Assembly (NCBI GenBank): GCA_022710975.1
Contig: JAKLGA010000016.1
Coordinates: 124,001 to 188,000, forward strand
Length of the DNA stretch: 64,000 nt
From: Myxococcota bacterium
GTDB lineage: Bacteria > Myxococcota > B64-G9
Direction of reading: 5' to 3'
In this document: piece by piece, positions 21,483-59,877 of the stretch
Layout: each line of letters opens with the position of its first letter
How positions within the stretch are numbered: the stretch's first letter is position 1
The notes under the pieces: model-generated
Database searches by the model: none
Seen by the model: only the letters and a program-made list of their open reading frames with translations
Told to the model about the DNA's origin: nothing
Program-made: the position numbers and the translations under genes

Positions 21483-23690
21483 ATGTTCCCCCTGGAGAAG
21501 ACGCTCGAGTCGCAGCTGCGCTCCTTCGGCGGCCCCCGCCCCACGCTCATCTTCCCCGAGGCCGACGATCCGCGGGTGATCGCCGCCGCGTCGGGGCTGA
21601 TCCAGTTCGCCAAGGTGGTGCTGACCCGGCGCTGGGAGGACATCGAGCGCGACATCCACGCGCACGCGATCCCGCTGCGGGTGAGCCTGCGGCGCTTCCG
21701 CCAGTCGGTGCGCTGCCTGGCGCCCGCGGACGAGCCCGGGCTGTGCGAGGACTTCGCCCGGGAGATGGCCGAGCTGTCCCGGGGCAAGGCCTACCAGGTC
21801 GGCCTGGAGGAGGCCCGGGCGCTGACGCGCGATCCGGTCTACTTCTCCATCCTGGCGGTGCGCCAGGGGCACGCGGACGCGGTGCTGGGGGGCGTGACCC
21901 ACGCCTCGCGCGACTTCTTCCAGCCCTGCCTGCGTTTCCTGGAGCGCGACGGCACGGTCTACGAGATGGGCCTGTTCGCCCTGCCCGACTCCCACGCCCC
22001 GGGCCTGTTCCACCAGAACCTGGTCATGTTCGCCGACGTGGCGCTGAACCCCGAGCCCTCGCCCGAGCGCCTGGCCGACATCGCGGTGGGCGCCTGCGTC
22101 ACCATGCGCAACCTCATCCCGGTCGAGCAGCTGCCCGAGGTGAACGGCGCCATCCTGTCCTACTCCACCCGCGGCTCGGGCTCCGGGCCCTCGGTGGACC
22201 GGGTGCGCGGGGCCGAGCCCCACATCGAGCGGCTGCTGTCGCGCCTGGCGGCCGAGAACCCGCTCTACCGCAGCATCCACATCGCCACCGAGCTGCAGAT
22301 CTCGGTGGCCATCTCCAAGGACATGGCCCGCTCCAAGCTGGGGCCCCAGGCCGATCAGCTCCCGGCCGTGGGCGTGGCCAACGTGCTGGTGGTCAGCAAC
22401 CTGGACACCGGCAACCTGCTCTACCACATCTACAACACGCGCTTCCCCGACGCGCAGAGCGTGCTCGTCATCGGCGGCCTCAGGAACCAGGCCCTCGACT
22501 TCTCGCGCTCCTCGAAGCCCCACGACGTGGAGATGGGCGCCAAGGCGCTCCTGCTGCGGCTGTACCGCTCGGGCCGTTTCCGCGCCACCCCGCGGGACAC
22601 CTTCTTCCCCCGCTCGCGCGTGCTGGCCATCGGCCCGCACAACAGCTACACCGACGTGGCCGTGTGGGGCGGGCGGGATCTCATCCGCGAGGAGCGCCTG
22701 CCGCACGATCCGGCCGAGCTGCCGGACGACTTCGCGGCCCAGGTGCCGATCCGCAAGGCCGCGGTGATGGAGTTCCTGGGCCGGGCCGGGCTGCGGCCCG
22801 AGGAGCTGGCGGCCGTGGTGGGCCGGGGCGGGCTGGTGCTGCCGGTCGAGTCGGGCACCTACCTGGTGGACGAGGCCATGCTCGAGCACCTGCGCCAGGC
22901 CCGCTCGGGCAGGCACGTGGTCAACCTGGGGGCCCTGCTGGCGCGCGAGGTGGCCGGCCCCGCCCACCCGCACGTGTTCATCGTCGATCCGCCGGTGGTG
23001 GACGAGCTGGACGAGGCCGCGCGCCTGACCGGCCTGCCCGGGGTGGAGCTCCCGGTCACCTGGCACGCGCTGGGGCAGAAGGCGGCCGCCAAGCTGTACG
23101 CCGACCAGCACAACCGCGAGTACGAGGAGCTGAAGCTCATCGTGGGTTTCCTGGGGCGCGGCATCTCGGTCGGGGCGCACCTCAACGGGCGCTGCGTCAA
23201 GGTGGGCAACGCCCTGTTCGACGGCCCCATGTCGCTCGATCGCGCCGGCAGCCTGCCCGGCCGCGAGCTGGTCGACCTGTGCTTCTCCGGCCCGGGCAAG
23301 GACCAGGTCATCGACCGGCTGACCACCCAGTCGGGGCTGAAGGCCTACCTGGGCTCGGCCGACTTCGAGGAGGCCGAGCGCCGGGCCCAGGCCGGCGACG
23401 CCCTGGCGGTGCGGGTGCTGGACGCCATGGCCGAGCAGATCGCCACCGAGATCGCGGGCCTGGTGCCCAAGTTCGACGGCGAGCCGGTCGACCAGATCAT
23501 CCTGACCGGCCCGCTGTGCACCTCGGCCTGGCTGGTGGCGAGCCTGAGGAAGGCGCTCAGGCAGCTGCCCGTCGAGATCACCGTGTACCCGGGCAGCCGC
23601 GAGATGGCGGCGCTGCGGGACGGCGCGCTGCGCGTGCTGCAGGGCTTCGAGCCCGCCCGCCCCTACCGGCCCATCCGCGCCGCGCGGTGA
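21483..23690 (+). CDS. Phosphate acyltransferase-butyrate kinase fusion with a degenerate kinase half
   Basis: 735 residues, two enzymes in one chain. Residues about 1-370 are a phosphate acetyl/butyryltransferase domain (acyl-CoA + Pi to acyl phosphate): 'AILSYSTRGSGSGPSVDRV', 'VGVANVLVVSNLDTGNLLYH' and SR followed by Asp seven residues after the Ser, the pattern of catalytic Ser/Arg/Asp in Pta. Residues about 380-730 are a butyrate kinase fold: 'VVGRGGLVLPVESGTYLVD', 'IVDPPVVDELDEA', 'WHALGQKA', 'ISVGAHLNGR'. However the kinase lacks NPGSTSTK (here GPHNSYTD), HxGGG (here FLGRG) and LTGGIA (here LTGPLC). So acyl transfer looks intact while ATP formation is doubtful. An RBS-like GAGGAGG precedes ATG 21483. 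Confidence 0.88.
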   Translation: MFPLEKTLESQLRSFGGPRPTLIFPEADDPRVIAAASGLIQFAKVVLTRRWEDIERDIHAHAIPLRVSLRRFRQSVRCLAPADEPGLCEDFAREMAELSRGKAYQVGLEEARALTRDPVYFSILAVRQGHADAVLGGVTHASRDFFQPCLRFLERDGTVYEMGLFALPDSHAPGLFHQNLVMFADVALNPEPSPERLADIAVGACVTMRNLIPVEQLPEVNGAILSYSTRGSGSGPSVDRVRGAEPHIERLLSRLAAENPLYRSIHIATELQISVAISKDMARSKLGPQADQLPAVGVANVLVVSNLDTGNLLYHIYNTRFPDAQSVLVIGGLRNQALDFSRSSKPHDVEMGAKALLLRLYRSGRFRATPRDTFFPRSRVLAIGPHNSYTDVAVWGGRDLIREERLPHDPAELPDDFAAQVPIRKAAVMEFLGRAGLRPEELAAVVGRGGLVLPVESGTYLVDEAMLEHLRQARSGRHVVNLGALLAREVAGPAHPHVFIVDPPVVDELDEAARLTGLPGVELPVTWHALGQKAAAKLYADQHNREYEELKLIVGFLGRGISVGAHLNGRCVKVGNALFDGPMSLDRAGSLPGRELVDLCFSGPGKDQVIDRLTTQSGLKAYLGSADFEEAERRAQAGDALAVRVLDAMAEQIATEIAGLVPKFDGEPVDQIILTGPLCTSAWLVASLRKALRQLPVEITVYPGSREMAALRDGALRVLQGFEPARPYRPIRAAR

Positions 23691-23693
23691 GCC

Positions 23694-26600
23694 TCAGTGC
23701 CTGACCGTCTGCTCTGGCGCCAGCTTCGGAGCAGAGGGATTCTCGAGCAGAACGATCGGCACCTGGCGCAGCCCTGGGTCCTGATCCTCGAGCTGAAGGA
23801 GGACCGCCGCGATCTCGTTCGACGCCTTGGCTTCGAGAGGCGACTGGAGCCACGCCGCCAGGGTCTGATGGGCTTCCTCGGCACCGAAGCCGGCAAGGAG
23901 GGCAAGGTACGCGGACGCTTTCTCGCCGCAATCGAGTCCGCCTCCGCACCATCCTCCGCACCATAAAGACGGATCTGGCGTCCCGCAAGGCTCTCCACGC
24001 ACATAGAACATCGAGCTGGAACGCCAGTCATGGGAAGTACCCGCCCAGACGAAAGCGCTCACATCCACCGCGGCTCGAAGGAAAACACGTCTCGGGCGCA
24101 CCTGTGTCGCTACATCCAGCCCGACCATCAACCGAGCCAGGCGCTCCACGTCGGGCCTGGCAGGCCGGAATCGTGCGCTGGCCAGAGCCCTCGCGAGGAC
24201 GAGGCACTCCCACGTGTCGTCCTCGGACAGGAGCTCGGCGTGAAGGCGCGCCGCCGAATCGGGGCCCTGTCGCGCGATCCAGGCATGAAACTCCACGCCT
24301 CCTTCTATGACCGAGTCAAAGCGGCCGAAGTTCATCATTCCAGCGCAAACCGGACTCCCGTGGCTCAAGGCGACCTCGGCCTCCTCGCGAGTCAGAGGAC
24401 ATCCCGAAAGGAACAAGCAACGAAGCAATTCGGCGCCGAGCTGTTCCTGCCTCGGGTGAGAACGGCGAAGACGCGAGTCAGGTAACGGCGCCTGTGCCCC
24501 GCTCGACCTGCACGCGATGCAACTCCACCCTCCACCCGTCACCTCCTCGACTAGCCACGGCCGCAGCCGGATCAGCGACTCCAGATCGAGAGCCAGCATT
24601 CGATCGGCGAGAATCCGGCGGACCACTTCTGGTGATTCTCGATGCAACCGCGCCACTACGCTCCCGAGCGCTTCCACAGCCTGCGCTCGAATCTCTTCCT
24701 CGGGGTCATCCAGGGAAGCGCGCACCAGCGGGAGGGCGTCCTGACCTCCAAGCCACCTGGTAAAATCCAATGCGGCCAGTTTCTGGACCATATCGCCGCC
24801 ACGGAGCGCGCGAGACACATCCGCAGACCAGCGCACCGAGACGCGAGGTCCCGTGACGCCGTGGAGACCGACGAAGCACTCGGAACCGAGGCGCGCACAG
24901 GCAGCGAGGAGGAGTTCATCACCGCACGGGCCATCGACGGCCGGCCAGGGCAGCTCTTCCACTCGAACGCCGTCTCTTGCGGTGGCGGCACGAATCCGGA
25001 GCAATGGGACGATGAGATCCTCCTCGCAAGTACGGGCGACTATCTCCTGATCCTTGGCGCCGAAGACGTGGTCCTCGTACCTGAAAGAAACCTCACCCGT
25101 CGCGGAGCGGATCTTCCCAAGCAAATACTCTATCTCCCGTCGATCCCCGAGCAGGGCGCGGAACCTCCTCGCCACCGCATCGAGCATGCCCTTGGGGAGC
25201 TCGTTCGGCTGCAAGGGATGCCGGGTCAGCCTATCCAGAGACTCGATGGCCGTTTGAGGGTGCCTGTACGCATCTGGCTCGAAGAAGCAGGCCAAGTCCA
25301 TCGTGTCGAGCCATCCAGGGGAATGCGCGGTTCTCCAGGCCAGCGCAGCCATCGATCGGTGGTCGCGGAGCGCCAGGATGGCAGCCACTGCGGATGCTTG
25401 CCTGGACTGCATCGACGCGGGCTGGAAGGCGATGCCAGCCTCGAGCAGGGGTCTCACCTCTTCGAGCGCCCTCGCATCTTCTGAGGTCAGAGGTTCACAG
25501 TTCCGGTTCTTCTTTCCCGAGAACCTCGAGGCGCGACGGTCGAACCGCGCCATGACCTCTCGCAGCAAGCCAGTGGCGAGCAAAGGTCGCCGGATGCGGA
25601 GCGCGATATCGTCCGCGAGGACCCTCTCCAGCTCCCCCCCGCGACGCATGGCATCGAGAATGGGCAGCGCCGCAGAGCCCAGGGACACCATGAGATCCCT
25701 GAGCCTCTCGTGGTTCTCGCCCTTGGCGTGCAGAGCAGCATCGAACAGGGCAGGGATCGCTCTCACATCACCGAGCCCCGCAAGGAGCTTGGCGGCATCG
25801 AGCTTCACCGGGGAGCCCTCGAGGGTGAGAGAAGCCAGGAGCGCCGTCCTCGGGTGGCCCTGCAGGGCCAGCACCTGCGGACGAATTGCCTGGTAAACAT
25901 GCACCCGTCTCCGCGGTGGATCGGCGAGGATCCTCAGGGCATTCGGGAGGTCTCGGTCATGGGTCGAGAGCAAGGCCTCGAGGATGCCGAAGTCAGGCTC
26001 GGGAAGACCCTGCCGCTCCAGCAGGCGCAAGAAGAGCCCATAGGCCATCTCCGGCTCCCTGCGCGCCAGCTCGAACGCGACCACCCAGCGGCCACCGTCG
26101 AGGCCCGAACTCGGCGAATCTCGCCAGCGGAGCGCGAGGTACCTCGCCAGCGCAACGCCCACAAGGGGGTTCTCTGGCATTCCGGCAGCCAGCAGAGCTG
26201 CGTCACCTCGTCCAAGGACGGCTGCACCGAACATGATCCTCTCAGGTGACGAACCGCCAAACACCCTCCACCCCAGGCCGTTGTCCTGGGGCTCGGGTTG
26301 GTCGAATCCAGCGAGCACATCCTCCAGGAGAATCCGCTCAAGAACCCGGCCTCCGGTCGCTGCATCGTCTCTCCGCGCCGCCACCTCGTCGCGTCCAAGG
26401 GCCAGGATGCCGCGCCAGAGGGTATCCAGCGACTCGTAGATGGCCGGCTCGTCCACCCTGGACCCGTGGGCGACGAAGAGCGAGACTGCCAGGCGCAGCG
26501 CCGCTCGGCCGTGGAGCACCAGCAGCGCCTCGGCGGAGGCAAGCTGGACAGCCACTTCGCCCGACCAGGCTAGCGCCCAGAGCAGCGGGAACGTGGCGCT

Positions 26601-27425
26601 GGGCTCCCGCAGCCGCCCTAGGGCACATGCGGCCACCATCCGTCTATGATTGCTCTTCGACCGTCTCTCGACCCCCACCCCGGAGAGGAGCAGGTCTTCG
26701 GGAGCGACTACCGAGTGCAGGGCTCCGACGAGTAGTGGGACCACATCGGGCCCCAGGGAGGCACATGCGTCTGCCATGGTAGCGATGTGATCCGCGGTGT
26801 CTGAAGCCGACGCACTCCTCAGGATGGACGGGACGTGCTCGGGCGAGCCGACCAGTCCGAGCGCACGCACGGGGGCGGGGTATCTCGACGCGCGCCAGTG
26901 ACCACCGCCCTCACCTCGAAGTCTTCCCTCGAGAAAGCCTGCTGCTGCCCGGTCGAGCTCCCCGATGAACAGGAACTCCGGACAGGAGACCAGGTCGCGA
27001 GACGACTCCAGCCACACCTCGGTCTGGCAGATCTGGGCTTCGACGCGACAGGGTGACGACCTGACCACCACCCTGGCGCGCCGGCCAGGGAGTGGGCTCA
27101 CCTCGGCGCCGGGCTCGAGCACCTGCCGCCACAGCGGAACCCGATCGGGGTGATCGAGCTGCGCCAGGAGGTCCAGCGCCAGCACCCGCTCGCCGAGCCG
27201 TTCGCTCTTCGCCTTGCGGGAGAGGAGCGGCCTCAACGCCTCGCCCTGCCTGACGAGCAGGCTCACCCCTGCGTCGTAGGCCGGGCCCATGCGTTTCGCG
27301 GTCAGCTCGAAGAATGGCTCAATCGATGCCGGACCCGCAGGATGCGTGTCACGCGCACAAGTGGACAGCAGGCAGAGTCCGCTCAGCGCCAGCGCCATCC
27401 CAGCCAGACAGCCGGACGCCCTCAT
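23694..27425 (-). CDS. Large HEAT-repeat lipoprotein
   Basis: 1243 residues. Lipoprotein signal with Cys23 (LLSTC). Most of the chain is made of HEAT-like helical pairs, for example 'PVRALGLVGSPEHVPSILRSA' and 'EIRAQAVEALGSVVARLHRE', giving a long solenoid likely displayed outside the cytoplasmic membrane. Several scattered Cys pairs, including a CGGWCGGGLDC cluster near residue 1170, may form disulphides. G+C and third-position bias are lower than in the flanking genes, so it may be a later acquisition. It ends 3 bases from the convergent Pta/Buk gene. I find neither a clear promoter nor ribosome site, so the start is tentative. No enzyme motif was found. Confidence 0.75.
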   Translation of the reverse strand: MRASGCLAGMALALSGLCLLSTCARDTHPAGPASIEPFFELTAKRMGPAYDAGVSLLVRQGEALRPLLSRKAKSERLGERVLALDLLAQLDHPDRVPLWRQVLEPGAEVSPLPGRRARVVVRSSPCRVEAQICQTEVWLESSRDLVSCPEFLFIGELDRAAAGFLEGRLRGEGGGHWRASRYPAPVRALGLVGSPEHVPSILRSASASDTADHIATMADACASLGPDVVPLLVGALHSVVAPEDLLLSGVGVERRSKSNHRRMVAACALGRLREPSATFPLLWALAWSGEVAVQLASAEALLVLHGRAALRLAVSLFVAHGSRVDEPAIYESLDTLWRGILALGRDEVAARRDDAATGGRVLERILLEDVLAGFDQPEPQDNGLGWRVFGGSSPERIMFGAAVLGRGDAALLAAGMPENPLVGVALARYLALRWRDSPSSGLDGGRWVVAFELARREPEMAYGLFLRLLERQGLPEPDFGILEALLSTHDRDLPNALRILADPPRRRVHVYQAIRPQVLALQGHPRTALLASLTLEGSPVKLDAAKLLAGLGDVRAIPALFDAALHAKGENHERLRDLMVSLGSAALPILDAMRRGGELERVLADDIALRIRRPLLATGLLREVMARFDRRASRFSGKKNRNCEPLTSEDARALEEVRPLLEAGIAFQPASMQSRQASAVAAILALRDHRSMAALAWRTAHSPGWLDTMDLACFFEPDAYRHPQTAIESLDRLTRHPLQPNELPKGMLDAVARRFRALLGDRREIEYLLGKIRSATGEVSFRYEDHVFGAKDQEIVARTCEEDLIVPLLRIRAATARDGVRVEELPWPAVDGPCGDELLLAACARLGSECFVGLHGVTGPRVSVRWSADVSRALRGGDMVQKLAALDFTRWLGGQDALPLVRASLDDPEEEIRAQAVEALGSVVARLHRESPEVVRRILADRMLALDLESLIRLRPWLVEEVTGGGWSCIACRSSGAQAPLPDSRLRRSHPRQEQLGAELLRCLFLSGCPLTREEAEVALSHGSPVCAGMMNFGRFDSVIEGGVEFHAWIARQGPDSAARLHAELLSEDDTWECLVLARALASARFRPARPDVERLARLMVGLDVATQVRPRRVFLRAAVDVSAFVWAGTSHDWRSSSMFYVRGEPCGTPDPSLWCGGWCGGGLDCGEKASAYLALLAGFGAEEAHQTLAAWLQSPLEAKASNEIAAVLLQLEDQDPGLRQVPIVLLENPSAPKLAPEQTVRH

Positions 27426-35212: not shown

Positions 35213-36643
35213 TCACAGCGGGTAGGCGAGCGTCAGCCCGAGCAGGGTGACCAGCAGCAGCACCACCGGGGTGAGCACCAGGAAGACCAGCAGGGTGAAG
35301 CCCATCACGTCCCGGGCGCGCAGCCCGAGCAGGGCCAGCGTGGGCAGCATCCAGAAGGGCTGCACCAGGTTGGCGAGCGCCTCCCCCAGGTCGTAGACCG
35401 CCACCATCCAGCCCAGGTGCACCCGCAGGTCGTGCGCCGCGGCCATCACGTAGGGCGCCTCGATCACCCACTTGGAGCCGCCGGACGGCACGAACACGCC
35501 CAGGCCGGTGGAGTACATGGCGATCAGCGCGGGGAAGCTCTCCGGGCTGGAGATGGACACGAAGAAGGCGGCGATGCGCTCGTTCAGCCCCGTGTACACG
35601 ATCACCCCGGCGATGCCGGCGTAGAAGGGGAACTGCAGGATCACCCCCCACACGGCCGGGGTGGCCTCGCGGAAGGCGCGCATCAGTCGGGCCGGGGTGC
35701 CGTGCAGGGCGAAGCCCAGCAGCAGGAAGGCCAGGTTGATCGTGTTCAGATCGATGGCCAGCAGCGGGTCGGCGGCCGTGGCGAAGCGATCGGCCAGGTA
35801 GAGTCCGCCCACGAGCACCACCAGCGCCGTCAGCAGCGGGCTGTGCTCCAGCCACTCGCCCGGCGCGCGCGGGCGCGGCGGCCCGTCGCCCGCGGCCGGC
35901 GGGTCGAGCCGCACCCCGAGCTGGGCCGCCGTGCGCGCCCGCGGCCCGACCGGGGTCACCAGCCAGATCACCAGCAGCACCACCGCGATCTCCACCAGCA
36001 CCGAGACCAGGCTCTGCCACAGGAAGATGGTGTGCCTGAGCGGCACCAGCCCGCCGGGGACCAGGCCGCCGTGGGCGATCACCTCGCGGATGGCCGGCTG
36101 CAACGCGCCCGGGGTGGTCATCTGCAGCGCGGCCGAGCCCGACAGGCCCTGGGCCCACACGCTGCCCAGGCCCAGGAAGGAGGCGGCCGCGAGCACGCGG
36201 TAGTCGCAGCCCGGGCGGCGGCGGGCCACCTCGCGCGCCAGGATGGCGCTGAAGATCAGCGAGAAGCCCCAGTTGAGCCAGGAGGTGAGCATGGCGAACA
36301 GCGCCACCAGGACGGCGGCCCCGCGATCGGTGCGCGGCCGCCCGGCCAGCCAGGTGATCGCGCGCAGCACCGGCCGCGAGGAGGCCAGCACGTAGCCCGT
36401 GATGATCACCAGCGCCATCTGCAGGGTGAAGGGGATGAGCTCCCAGAACCCCTTGCCCCAGCTCCGCACCAGCTCCAGCGGGCCAGCCGGGGTGGCCAGC
36501 AGCCCCGCGGCGAGCACCAGCAGGGTGGCCACCAGGGCGAACACGAAGGCGTCCGGGATCCAGCGTTCGCTCCAGGCGGTGAAGCGCACCGCCAGCCGCT
36601 CCAGGCGTCCCGGCGAGCCGGGCGGGGGGATCGGATCGCTCAT
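35213..36643 (-). CDS. AtoE-like short-chain fatty acid carrier
   Basis: 476 residues with about twelve hydrophobic segments. Matches the short-chain fatty acid transporter family (TIGR00366): 'RWIPDAFVFALVATLLV' at the N-terminus, 'LTSWLNWGFSLIFSAILAREV', 'TINLAFLLLGFALHGTP', 'FVPSGGSKWVIEAPYVM' and 'YDLGEALANLVQPFWMLP'. The family moves butyrate, acetoacetate and related acids across the inner membrane. ATG 36643 has GGGAGG; a longer frame to 36694 lacks it. It ends one base from the convergent PATAN gene. The Pta/Buk fusion 12 kb away could act on the same compounds, but they are not in one operon. Confidence 0.9.
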   Translation of the reverse strand: MSDPIPPPGSPGRLERLAVRFTAWSERWIPDAFVFALVATLLVLAAGLLATPAGPLELVRSWGKGFWELIPFTLQMALVIITGYVLASSRPVLRAITWLAGRPRTDRGAAVLVALFAMLTSWLNWGFSLIFSAILAREVARRRPGCDYRVLAAASFLGLGSVWAQGLSGSAALQMTTPGALQPAIREVIAHGGLVPGGLVPLRHTIFLWQSLVSVLVEIAVVLLVIWLVTPVGPRARTAAQLGVRLDPPAAGDGPPRPRAPGEWLEHSPLLTALVVLVGGLYLADRFATAADPLLAIDLNTINLAFLLLGFALHGTPARLMRAFREATPAVWGVILQFPFYAGIAGVIVYTGLNERIAAFFVSISSPESFPALIAMYSTGLGVFVPSGGSKWVIEAPYVMAAAHDLRVHLGWMVAVYDLGEALANLVQPFWMLPTLALLGLRARDVMGFTLLVFLVLTPVVLLLVTLLGLTLAYPL

Positions 36644-36716
36644 GGCCAGGGCCTCCCGGGCTCGAGCATCCCTCGCCCGCGGGAGCCCACGCAAGGGGGC
36701 CGGCGGCAGACGCGCG

Positions 36717-57189: not shown

Positions 57190-57705
57190 ATGGACCGCAT
57201 GGCATCGATCGAGCTGGCGCTGAAGAACGAAGACACCGAGATGAAGTTCTACCTCGGGGAGGCGCAGCGCTCGAAGAACCCGCTGGCCAGGGCCATGTTC
57301 AAGAACCTGGCCAAGGACGAGGCCGAGCACAAGACCCGCATCCAGGGTCTACACGAGCGCCTGATCCGGGACGGGAGCTGGCCCCAGGACATGCCCCTCG
57401 AGGTGGCCGGGACCGACATCAAGAAGACCCTGGAGAAGATGCTGCACACCAAGGGCGCGGACCAGGCCCACGACCACGACGACGTGAGGGCCATCGAGAA
57501 GGCCATCGACTTCGAGGCCAAGGGGGAGCGGTTCTACGTCGAGCTCGCCAAGGTCTGCCAGAACCCCATGGAGCGCCGCTTCTTCGAGTTCCTCGCGCGC
57601 CTCGAGCGCGAGCACCACCTGAGCCTGACCGAGTCGCTGGCCTACCTCCAGGATCCCGCGGGCTGGATGCTGCAGCACGAGAAGGCCGGCCTGGACGGGG
57701 CCTGA
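57190..57705 (+). CDS. Rubrerythrin/ferritin-like diiron protein
   Basis: 171 residues, all helical. The metal ligands are in the usual places: Glu in 'ALKNEDTEMKFY', ExxH in 'DEAEHKTR', Glu in 'AIDFEAKGERFY' and ExxH in 'LEREHHLS'. There is no C-terminal rubredoxin Cys pair, so it is the ferritin-like half only. In anaerobes such proteins reduce peroxide. It stands directly upstream of the AOR gene, which has its own promoter. Confidence 0.88.
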   Translation: MDRMASIELALKNEDTEMKFYLGEAQRSKNPLARAMFKNLAKDEAEHKTRIQGLHERLIRDGSWPQDMPLEVAGTDIKKTLEKMLHTKGADQAHDHDDVRAIEKAIDFEAKGERFYVELAKVCQNPMERRFFEFLARLEREHHLSLTESLAYLQDPAGWMLQHEKAGLDGA

Positions 57706-57715
57706 CGCGACGTGC

Positions 57716-57721
57716 TAGCCT
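57716..57721 (+). promoter_or_regulatory. -10 box for the AOR gene
   Basis: TAGCCT with TGC extended -10; a poor -35 (CTGGAC, 57691-57696) lies 19 bases upstream inside the previous gene. GGGAGG follows before ATG 57751. Confidence 0.4.
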
Positions 57722-57750
57722 GCGGGCGTTCCCCTGCACGGGAGGTTCGC

Positions 57751-59625
57751 ATGGCGGGCGGCTCGCACAACCGCTACCTGGACGTGGATCTCGGGACCGG
57801 CGCGGTCCGCGTCCGCTCCTTCGAGCGGGACGAGCTCGAGCGCTACCTGGGCGGGCGGGGGCTGGGCGTGCGCCTGCTCTACGACCACACCGATCCGGGC
57901 CTGGACCCCTACGACCCGCGCATGGTGCTGGTCTTCGCGGTCGGGCCGCTCACGGGCTCGGCCGCCCCTCAGTCCAACCGCTTCAGCGTGACCACCAAGT
58001 CGCCGCTGACAGGCGGGCTGGCCGACAGCCACTGCGGCGGCAGCTTCGCCACCAAGCTCAAGCGCGCGGGCTACGACGCGCTGCTCATCCGCGGCCGCAG
58101 CCCGCGCCCGGTGCTGCTGGAGATCGAGGATGAGCGGGTGGAGCTGAAGGACGCCGGCCACCTGTGGGGCCAGGGCACCACCCAGACCCAGGGGGCGCTG
58201 CCCAACCGCTTCGGCAAGGCGGTGATCGGCCCGGCCGGCGAGCACCTGGTGCGCTTCGCCTGCATCGTCTCCGACGCGCGCGTGGCGGGGCGCGGCGGGG
58301 TGGGCGCGGTCATGGGCTCGAAGCAGCTCAAGGCCATCGTGGTGGACGGCACCCACAAGCTGGAGCCGGCCCGGCCCGAGGCCTACAAGGAGCTGCAGAA
58401 GTCCATCACCAAGTACCTGCTCGCGCACCCCATGACCGGCGGGGTGCTGCCCGAGCTGGGCACGGCCAACCTGGTCATGACCACGGCCGGGCGGAACATC
58501 ATCCCCACCCGCAACTTCCAGGCCGGGCGGGATCTGCGCACCCCGCAGCTGTCCGGCGAGAAGATGCGCGACGAGCTGCTGGCCAAGCGCGAGGGCTGCC
58601 TGCACTGCCCGGTCCGCTGCGGGCGGCTGGTCAAGCTCCAGGAGCGCGTGACCAAGGGCCCCGAGTTCGAGACCATCGGCCTGCTGGGTAACAACCTGGG
58701 CGTCTTCGACATGCCGGACGTGGTGCGGCTGGGCGAGCTGTGCGACGACCTGGGCCTGGACACCATCAGCATGGGCAACACGCTGGGCTTCGCCACCGAG
58801 CTCACCGAGCGCGGGTTGCTCTCGAGCGAGCTCGCCTGGGGCGACGTGGCGGCCTACCGCGCGGCCATCGAGCGCACCGCCCTGCGCGAGGGCCTGGGCG
58901 ACGAGCTGGCCGAGGGCACCCGCCGTCTGGCGGCGCTCCACGGCGGCGCGGACTACGCCATCCAGGTCAAGGGGATGGAGCTGCCGGCCTACGACCCGCG
59001 CGGCTGCGTCGGTCAGGGGCTGGAGTACGCCACCTGCAACCGCGGCGGCTGCCACATCCGCGGCAGCACCATGTTCCTGGAGGCCACCGGCCCCGTGTCG
59101 ATCGATCCCCACTCCCCGCTCGCCAAGCCGGAGCTGGTGATCCTGCAGCAGAACCTGAACGCGGCCGTGTCCTCGCTGGTCATGTGCTGGTTCTCGGCCT
59201 ACGCCATGATCCCGCCGCCGCTGTTCCGCATGGATCCCAACTCGCTGGCCTACCGGCTGCTGATGCAGGCCATGCTGCACTCCGGGCCGATCGTGCGGGT
59301 GGTGCTGGGCCTCAAGGCGCCCACGAAGCTGCTGTGGTTCGAGAAGTTCGTGACCACCTACGCCGGGCGTGACTTCAGCATGGGCGACCTCACCGAGCTG
59401 GGCGAGCGCGTCTTCAACCTGGAGCGCATGTACAACCTGCGCGAGGGCCTGCCGCCGAGCGCCGACACCCTGCCGGCGCGCCTGCTGCAGGAGGGCACCT
59501 CGCGCTCCTCCCCGGCCGGGGTTCCGCTGGCCGGCATGCTCTCGGCGTACTACCACGTGCGCGGCTGGGACGCGCAGGGCGTGCCCCGGGCCCGCACCCT
59601 GCAACGCCTGGGCGTACGCACCTGA
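57751..59625 (+). CDS. Aldehyde:ferredoxin oxidoreductase family, tungstopterin enzyme
   Basis: 624 residues. Aldehyde oxidation to acid with ferredoxin reduction is the family reaction. N-terminal 'YLGGRGLGVRLLYDH' and 'VGPLTGSAAPQSNRFSVTTK', then 'AGRGGVGAVMGSKQLKAIVV', bind the bis-pterin tungsten cofactor. The 4Fe-4S ligands are CLHCPVRC near residue 285-292 plus a later Cys in 'SSLVMCWFSAY'. 'GVFDMPDVVRLGELCDDLGLD' is also typical. ATG 57751 has GGGAGG. It is followed 3 bases later by a MoaD/ThiS-like gene, a recurrent pairing for tungsten-pterin enzymes. Confidence 0.95.
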   Translation: MAGGSHNRYLDVDLGTGAVRVRSFERDELERYLGGRGLGVRLLYDHTDPGLDPYDPRMVLVFAVGPLTGSAAPQSNRFSVTTKSPLTGGLADSHCGGSFATKLKRAGYDALLIRGRSPRPVLLEIEDERVELKDAGHLWGQGTTQTQGALPNRFGKAVIGPAGEHLVRFACIVSDARVAGRGGVGAVMGSKQLKAIVVDGTHKLEPARPEAYKELQKSITKYLLAHPMTGGVLPELGTANLVMTTAGRNIIPTRNFQAGRDLRTPQLSGEKMRDELLAKREGCLHCPVRCGRLVKLQERVTKGPEFETIGLLGNNLGVFDMPDVVRLGELCDDLGLDTISMGNTLGFATELTERGLLSSELAWGDVAAYRAAIERTALREGLGDELAEGTRRLAALHGGADYAIQVKGMELPAYDPRGCVGQGLEYATCNRGGCHIRGSTMFLEATGPVSIDPHSPLAKPELVILQQNLNAAVSSLVMCWFSAYAMIPPPLFRMDPNSLAYRLLMQAMLHSGPIVRVVLGLKAPTKLLWFEKFVTTYAGRDFSMGDLTELGERVFNLERMYNLREGLPPSADTLPARLLQEGTSRSSPAGVPLAGMLSAYYHVRGWDAQGVPRARTLQRLGVRT

Positions 59626-59628
59626 GCC

Positions 59629-59877
59629 ATGCCGATCCTCGTCCCCCACGCCAGGCTGGCCGCGCTCCTGGGCGAGACCAGCGTCCGCTCCGCGGCGGCG
59701 ACCCTCGGCGAGCTGCTCGCGGAGGTCGAGCGCCGGGTGGGTCCTCAGGACTGGGCCTGGGCGCGCAAGGCCACGCTGCTCGTCAACGGCCGGGCGGCCC
59801 ACCACCTGGGTGGCCTGCGGGCGCGGCTCGAGCCCGAGGATCAGGTCTGGATGGTGCTGCCCTCGGCCGGAGGCTGA
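59629..59877 (+). CDS. MoaD/ThiS-family sulfur carrier
   Basis: 82 residues of ubiquitin fold. The chain ends in Gly-Gly ('MVLPSAGG'), the site that becomes thiocarboxylated. 'DQVWMVLPSAGG' and the hydrophobic 'TLLVNGRAAHHLGG' are typical. It begins 3 bases after the AOR stop, so it probably supplies sulfur for that enzyme's pterin dithiolene cofactor. No MoaE or MoeB is nearby. Confidence 0.88.
   Translation: MPILVPHARLAALLGETSVRSAAATLGELLAEVERRVGPQDWAWARKATLLVNGRAAHHLGGLRARLEPEDQVWMVLPSAGG

Follow-up and report, generated by a model that had tools for sequence, protein, structure and literature searches.

What does a protein do when it joins a phosphotransacylase to a butyrate kinase that no longer carries the motifs for binding a nucleotide? 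The question is raised by a single gene in the window, by which we mean the whole 64,000-nucleotide stretch of Myxococcota DNA analyzed here.

A phosphotransacetylase-like domain joined to a butyrate-kinase-type domain

The fusion gene lies at 21483..23690 (+) and is one open reading frame of 735 residues, exact from ATG to stop, as the original prediction had it. Third-position GC is 0.95-1.00 throughout the gene, at 0.99 in both halves and ~0.99 up to the stop. Convergent with it, at 23697-27425 (-), is a gene for a 1,243-residue protein with weak HEAT repeats.

The first domain (residues 21-349; 21543..22529, +) matches PF01515 (PTA_PTB; 4e-35), with 122 bits against a gathering score of 24, and the solved phosphotransacetylases (Ptas) 1R5J and 1QZT (E 1e-21 to 1e-18). 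The second domain (residues 378-728; 22614..23666, +) matches NF002834 and the butyrate kinase (Buk) profile TIGR02707, the latter with 315.2 bits over residues 379-725 against a curated cut-off of 289.1. It also aligns end to end with the Thermotoga Buk2 structures 1SAZ/1X9J (E 8e-67). The prediction of a Pta/Ptb domain fused to a butyrate kinase fold therefore holds for the fusion itself (PF01515, TIGR02707). It does not hold for a phosphate butyryltransferase (Ptb) as the first domain: TIGR02706 (phosphate butyryltransferase; cut-off 410.5 bits) gave no match to the protein at E 0.01, and TIGR00651 (phosphate acetyltransferase equivalog) gave 114.1 bits against a cut-off of 311.2. Ptb identity was rejected on these profile scores, and we describe the domain as Pta-like, of the TIGR00651/PRK09653 type and under the equivalog cut-offs. 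An AlphaFold model of the fusion, made from three sequences only, was of low confidence, with a pLDDT of 48.8 and a pTM of 0.34.

Alignment to 1QZT places S341, R342, and D348 (22503..22526, +) opposite S309, R310, and D316 of MtPta, which bears out the predicted Ser-Arg-x5-Asp pattern. The window equivalents of MtPta S128, Q244, K257, N279, Y282, and D307 are kept as well. In the Pta TP0094, mutants of the Ser and the Arg have 0.3% and 0.07% of activity, respectively (PMC10194888). Conservation of these residues suggests that the Pta half is active. However, because the equivalents of two CoA contacts (K283 and Q286) and of acyl phosphate pocket residues (Y294 and P296) differ, neither its activity nor its substrate is certain.

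Loss of the nucleotide motifs in the kinase half

All three motif replacements that had been predicted for the kinase half are present. PHOSPHATE1 reads GPHNSYTD at residues 384-391 (22632..22655, +) in place of NPGSTSTK, PHOSPHATE2 reads FLGRG at residues 556-560 (23148..23162, +) in place of HxGGG, and ADENOSINE reads TGP at residues 675-677 (23505..23513, +) in place of TGG. In acetate kinase, the Asn, Ser, and Lys of PHOSPHATE1 are important for activity (PMC4390882), and the role of the ADENOSINE Gly has been described (PMC5517563, PMC4390882). None of the butyrate-kinase motifs NPGxxSTK, HxGxG, and TGG is thus found in the protein, which nonetheless passes the curated butyrate-kinase cut-off. 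It would receive that name in annotation even though the ATP motifs are gone.

The motifs reported as retained are indeed there. RGG (R448-G450; 22824..22832, +), presumably on the acyl side of the site, is found in 41-42 of 42 canonical kinases and in all four degenerate proteins described below. In the kinase alignment, the Asp-Pro of the VDP motif (D502-P503; 22986..22991, +) and the Arg of the DRAG/ERSG motif (R587-A-G589; 23241..23249, +) are likewise kept, as are E707, H528, and HAL.QK. By homology with acetate kinase, we take R448, D502, R587, E707, and H528 to lie on the acyl/phosphate side. A PGE-to-PGS change near the C-terminus was considered as a further lost motif and rejected, since the solved Buk2 also carries PGS.

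We compared 46 near-invariant kinase positions, 12 in the ATP site and 34 elsewhere; the ATP-site set was taken from literature motifs (PMC4390882, PMC5517563) after the original prediction had flagged those motifs. The window protein has lost 6/12 ATP-site positions versus 3/34 elsewhere (p 0.005). For two relatives with the same fusion, L031 and L109, the losses are 6/12 versus 2/34 (p 0.002) and 4/12 versus 2/34 (p 0.03), the three tests being non-independent through shared ancestry. In each protein, it is the ATP site that has lost the larger share of its positions. Nor are the motif changes a matter of chance, since the same positions are altered in L031, L109, and the partial L110, and 42/48 of the collected Buk-type kinase rows are canonical in their motifs.

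Altered motifs also occur in other arrangements. A standalone Buk homologue (L107/L126; G376:C197:8582-9619, -) has independently altered motifs (LPTDIATE, TGP, and E707 to Leu) and still scores 385 bits as a butyrate kinase. In two Buk-first fusions (L027 and L028, from G026 and G013), PGS of PHOSPHATE1 has become PHN or PQN and TSTK is kept; their aligned match ends ahead of the ADENOSINE motif.

Three states of one fusion family

We searched the window's class and phylum, GTDB-species contigs, and a relative's own order and phylum for related proteins. The search covered part of the phylum of genome G195 and, beyond the two phyla, used two short peptide patterns only. Fourteen further Pta-then-Buk proteins were found, alongside many standalone kinases, and the family falls into three states. 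State 1, a pseudokinase behind a Pta half that keeps Ser-Arg-x5-Asp, comprises four proteins: the window protein, L031 (from the Myxococcota MAG Prado146), L109, and L110, which is truncated by its contig end. State 2, with both halves canonical and Ser-Arg-x5-Asp kept in every member, comprises three (L032, L093, and L111); L032 (= L003) comes from CSMAG_2928, which belongs to the same family as the window genome. State 3, a canonical kinase behind a pseudo-Pta, comprises eight (L094-L099, L112, and L113). No natural Pta-Buk fusion and no pseudo-acetate or pseudo-butyrate kinase was found in the open-access papers searched.

The recurrence of the fusion and its substitutions in related genomes, proposed as a check on the prediction, was thus observed in L031, L109, and, in part, L110. 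State-1 proteins are 52-67% identical per half. Their PHOSPHATE1 sequences are GPHNSYTD (window), SPQNEYTE (L031), NPVAAYTE (L109), and SPHREHTE (L110), such that in 4/4 the Lys has become Asp or Glu and the Ser has become Tyr or His. The PHOSPHATE2 His is Phe in the window protein and L031 and is kept in L109. In the three proteins that reach the ADENOSINE region, TGG has become TGP (window), TGA (L031), or TGS (L109). L109 may retain some activity, since it keeps the His of PHOSPHATE2 as well as the Asn of PHOSPHATE1.

State 3 shows losses in the other half. The equivalent of S309 has become Ala or Pro, that of R310 Met, Leu, or Gln, that of S128 Pro, that of Q244 Lys, and that of K257 Tyr or His, with D316 kept; CoA contacts are among the losses. 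The kinase motifs are canonical (NPGSTSSK for PHOSPHATE1 in L113). Judging from these residues, the two halves of the family look reciprocally inactivated. According to the original prediction, orthologues with canonical motifs would suggest that the window copy had simply decayed. Such orthologues exist in state 2, but this implication does not follow, since conservation extends to the degenerate form too. By its sequence, the window protein is not a single decayed copy but one example of a degenerate form common to four genomes.

In a tree of both halves together with the motif columns removed, the window protein groups with L031 and L109 (100/100), and the kinase tree (47 rows) recovers this clade with a support of 100. 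L110 was joined to them by 67% Pta identity and the common Lys-to-acid change. The kinase tree rejects strict monophyly for the fusions as a whole (p 2.4e-6), because two standalone canonical Buks, L101 and L102, nest inside the state-3 clade. The topology is compatible with, and does not prove, a single fusion event after which L101 and L102 lost their Pta half.

Without the motif columns, the ratio of kinase to Pta divergence is 1.32 (1.08-1.63) in state 1, 1.15 (0.94-1.43) in state 2, and 0.72 (0.60-0.89) in state 3. The state-3 ratio therefore indicates that the pseudo-Pta half evolves faster than its live kinase partner. These ratios suggest no clear rate excess of the state-1 kinase half over the intact forms, with a modest excess possible.

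Genome context and the role of the kinase half

The search for phosphotransacylases covered the PF01515 family, in which Pta- and Ptb-type genes were told apart by matched profile range and score. Within that scope, the fused Pta is the only Pta-type match in the state-1 genomes G000, G195, G391, and G384, and also in G002 and G230. The remaining PF01515 matches in these six genomes are Ptb-type genes or parts of reverse fusions. AckA was found in G000, G195, and G002. Another Buk gene is present in 4/4 state-1 genomes, and no other Buk was found in G002, which has an intact fusion. Genome searches found no phosphoketolase as a full-length match. At 35216-36694 (-), 11.5 kb downstream of the fusion, the window encodes a short-chain fatty acid transporter, which matches SCFA_trans with 346 bits. 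The genome context fits, but does not show, a Pta half whose product is passed to an acetate or butyrate kinase on a separate protein.

The window genome also encodes a second fusion, L002 (G000:C23:159125-161164, -), in which the order is reversed, Buk coming first and Ptb second; its kinase motifs are canonical. An ADP-forming acyl-CoA ligase-type gene (ATP-grasp_5, Succ_CoA_lig) belongs to the same row of genes (L087 166-7770). Several more genomes of the window's family encode comparable Buk-Ptb fusions. Elsewhere in the window, rubrerythrin, an aldehyde ferredoxin oxidoreductase, and a ThiS-like small protein are encoded in a row (57190-59874, +).

Members of the window clade have no operon in common around the fusion gene. 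In two state-1 genomes, purF precedes the fusion gene (L177 5235-8895; L178 648-3880), with a sigma-factor-like frame upstream; neither the window nor L031 shows this arrangement. The fusion gene of two state-3 genomes touches or overlaps a neighboring Ptb-type gene (L181 5964-9085; L182 5681-8877), which looks as though it provided a live Ptb in trans.

We consider that the window protein is probably an active phosphotransacylase with a pseudo-Buk that is unable to use ATP and has been retained for a non-catalytic role in regulation or as a scaffold. The regulatory pseudokinase of the original prediction fits what was found, in that the motifs are eroded in four genomes and the rest of the kinase half is constrained. 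The Pta half would convert acyl-CoA and phosphate to acyl phosphate and CoA, and a separate enzyme, either AckA or a further Buk of the genome, would take up the acyl phosphate. The pseudokinase, with R448, D502, and R587 kept, would bind acyl phosphate or a short-chain acid and signal to the Pta half; we infer such sensing from the residues that it keeps. That the window fusion itself channels acyl phosphate to ATP, as had been suggested, is unlikely; for the intact state-2 relatives such channelling is plausible.

The kinase half could instead be a relic, redundant given the other Buk genes and carried along by its fusion to a useful Pta. In favor of such decay, all four degenerate-form genomes carry another Buk, and none was found besides the intact fusion in G002; moreover, the nesting of L101 and L102 among fusions of the reciprocal clade implies that a dead half can be shed. 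We nevertheless find this unlikely: divergent lineages retain the kinase half at full length (in L110, to the contig end), its positions outside the motifs are not clearly faster than in intact relatives, the losses cluster as described, and the PHOSPHATE1 Lys position is acidic in every case. A different phosphoryl acceptor had also been raised, and the kinase half might use pyrophosphate/phosphate or some other acceptor in place of ADP. Replacement of the ADENOSINE Gly, as in the pyrophosphate-dependent acetate kinase of Entamoeba (PMC5517563), and retention of substrate-side R448, D502, R587, and E707 speak for such an altered phosphotransferase. This part of the original prediction is weak, however, and we strongly doubt it: the Entamoeba case is explained by ADENOSINE and PHOSPHATE2 changes (PMC5517563), and the window clade has also lost PHOSPHATE1, whose Asn (kept in L109), Ser, and Lys are important in acetate kinase (PMC4390882), the Lys being reversed to an acid, with the PHOSPHATE2 His gone in the window protein and L031. 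Hydrolysis of the Pta-made acyl phosphate by the kinase half, which would make the whole protein a phosphate-dependent acyl-CoA hydrolase, would suit a site with its substrate side kept and its nucleotide side lost. It is very improbable, as no precedent was found in the open-access literature searched and no clade-specific catalytic base was identified.

If the pseudokinase is indeed regulatory, the state-3 proteins could be its mirror image. We put forward only tentatively that one Pta-Buk family in Myxococcota-type bacteria has split reciprocally, with a live Pta regulated by a dead Buk as sensor of acyl phosphate or short-chain acid, and a live Buk regulated by a dead Pta as sensor of acyl-CoA; state 1 is known from four members only. 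If true, each enzyme of a two-step pathway has been turned into a sensor of the other. The family would offer a natural experiment, a fused two-step enzyme in which either half has become non-catalytic with intact forms still extant, and it becomes testable whether a pseudokinase relays feedback from acyl phosphate or short-chain acid to a phosphotransacylase.

The individual halves have clear counterparts. Like Thermotoga Buk2 (1SAZ/1X9J), the kinase half shows whole-domain homology above the TIGR02707 cut-off and keeps the substrate-side residues; unlike Buk2, it has all three ASKHA nucleotide motifs altered and sits behind a Pta domain. The Pta half shares the catalytic Ser, Arg, and Asp and most polar CoA-contact residues with the phosphotransacetylases of Methanosarcina thermophila (1QZT) and Treponema (TP0094), but it reaches 114 bits against the cut-off of 311, has changed acyl pocket residues, and is fused to a kinase domain. 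With the Entamoeba acetate kinase (PMC5517563), the protein shares the replaced ADENOSINE Gly; it differs in that PHOSPHATE1 is lost too in its clade, as is the PHOSPHATE2 His in two members.

For the fusion as a whole, the closest comparison is the hybrid malic enzyme MaeB (PMC7902834, PMC12704298). The window protein is not itself a MaeB-type hybrid, since Pfam finds no malic enzyme domain in it and the Asp and Ser of its Pta are kept. In both, two unrelated enzymes are fused, a dead member of the acyl-CoA/acyl-phosphate pathway is kept as a domain, and a Pta fold takes part. The Pta domain of MaeB has lost the Asp and Ser/Thr, binds acetyl-CoA, and has no Pta activity (PMC7902834), and its partner is live; the window Pta keeps those residues, and its kinase partner has lost its motifs. 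MaeB is regulated through an acetyl-CoA sensor, whereas regulation of the window protein is predicted from sequence. MaeB thus illustrates that a pathway enzyme can lose its activity and still be kept for allosteric control, a principle that the window protein would follow with the roles swapped.
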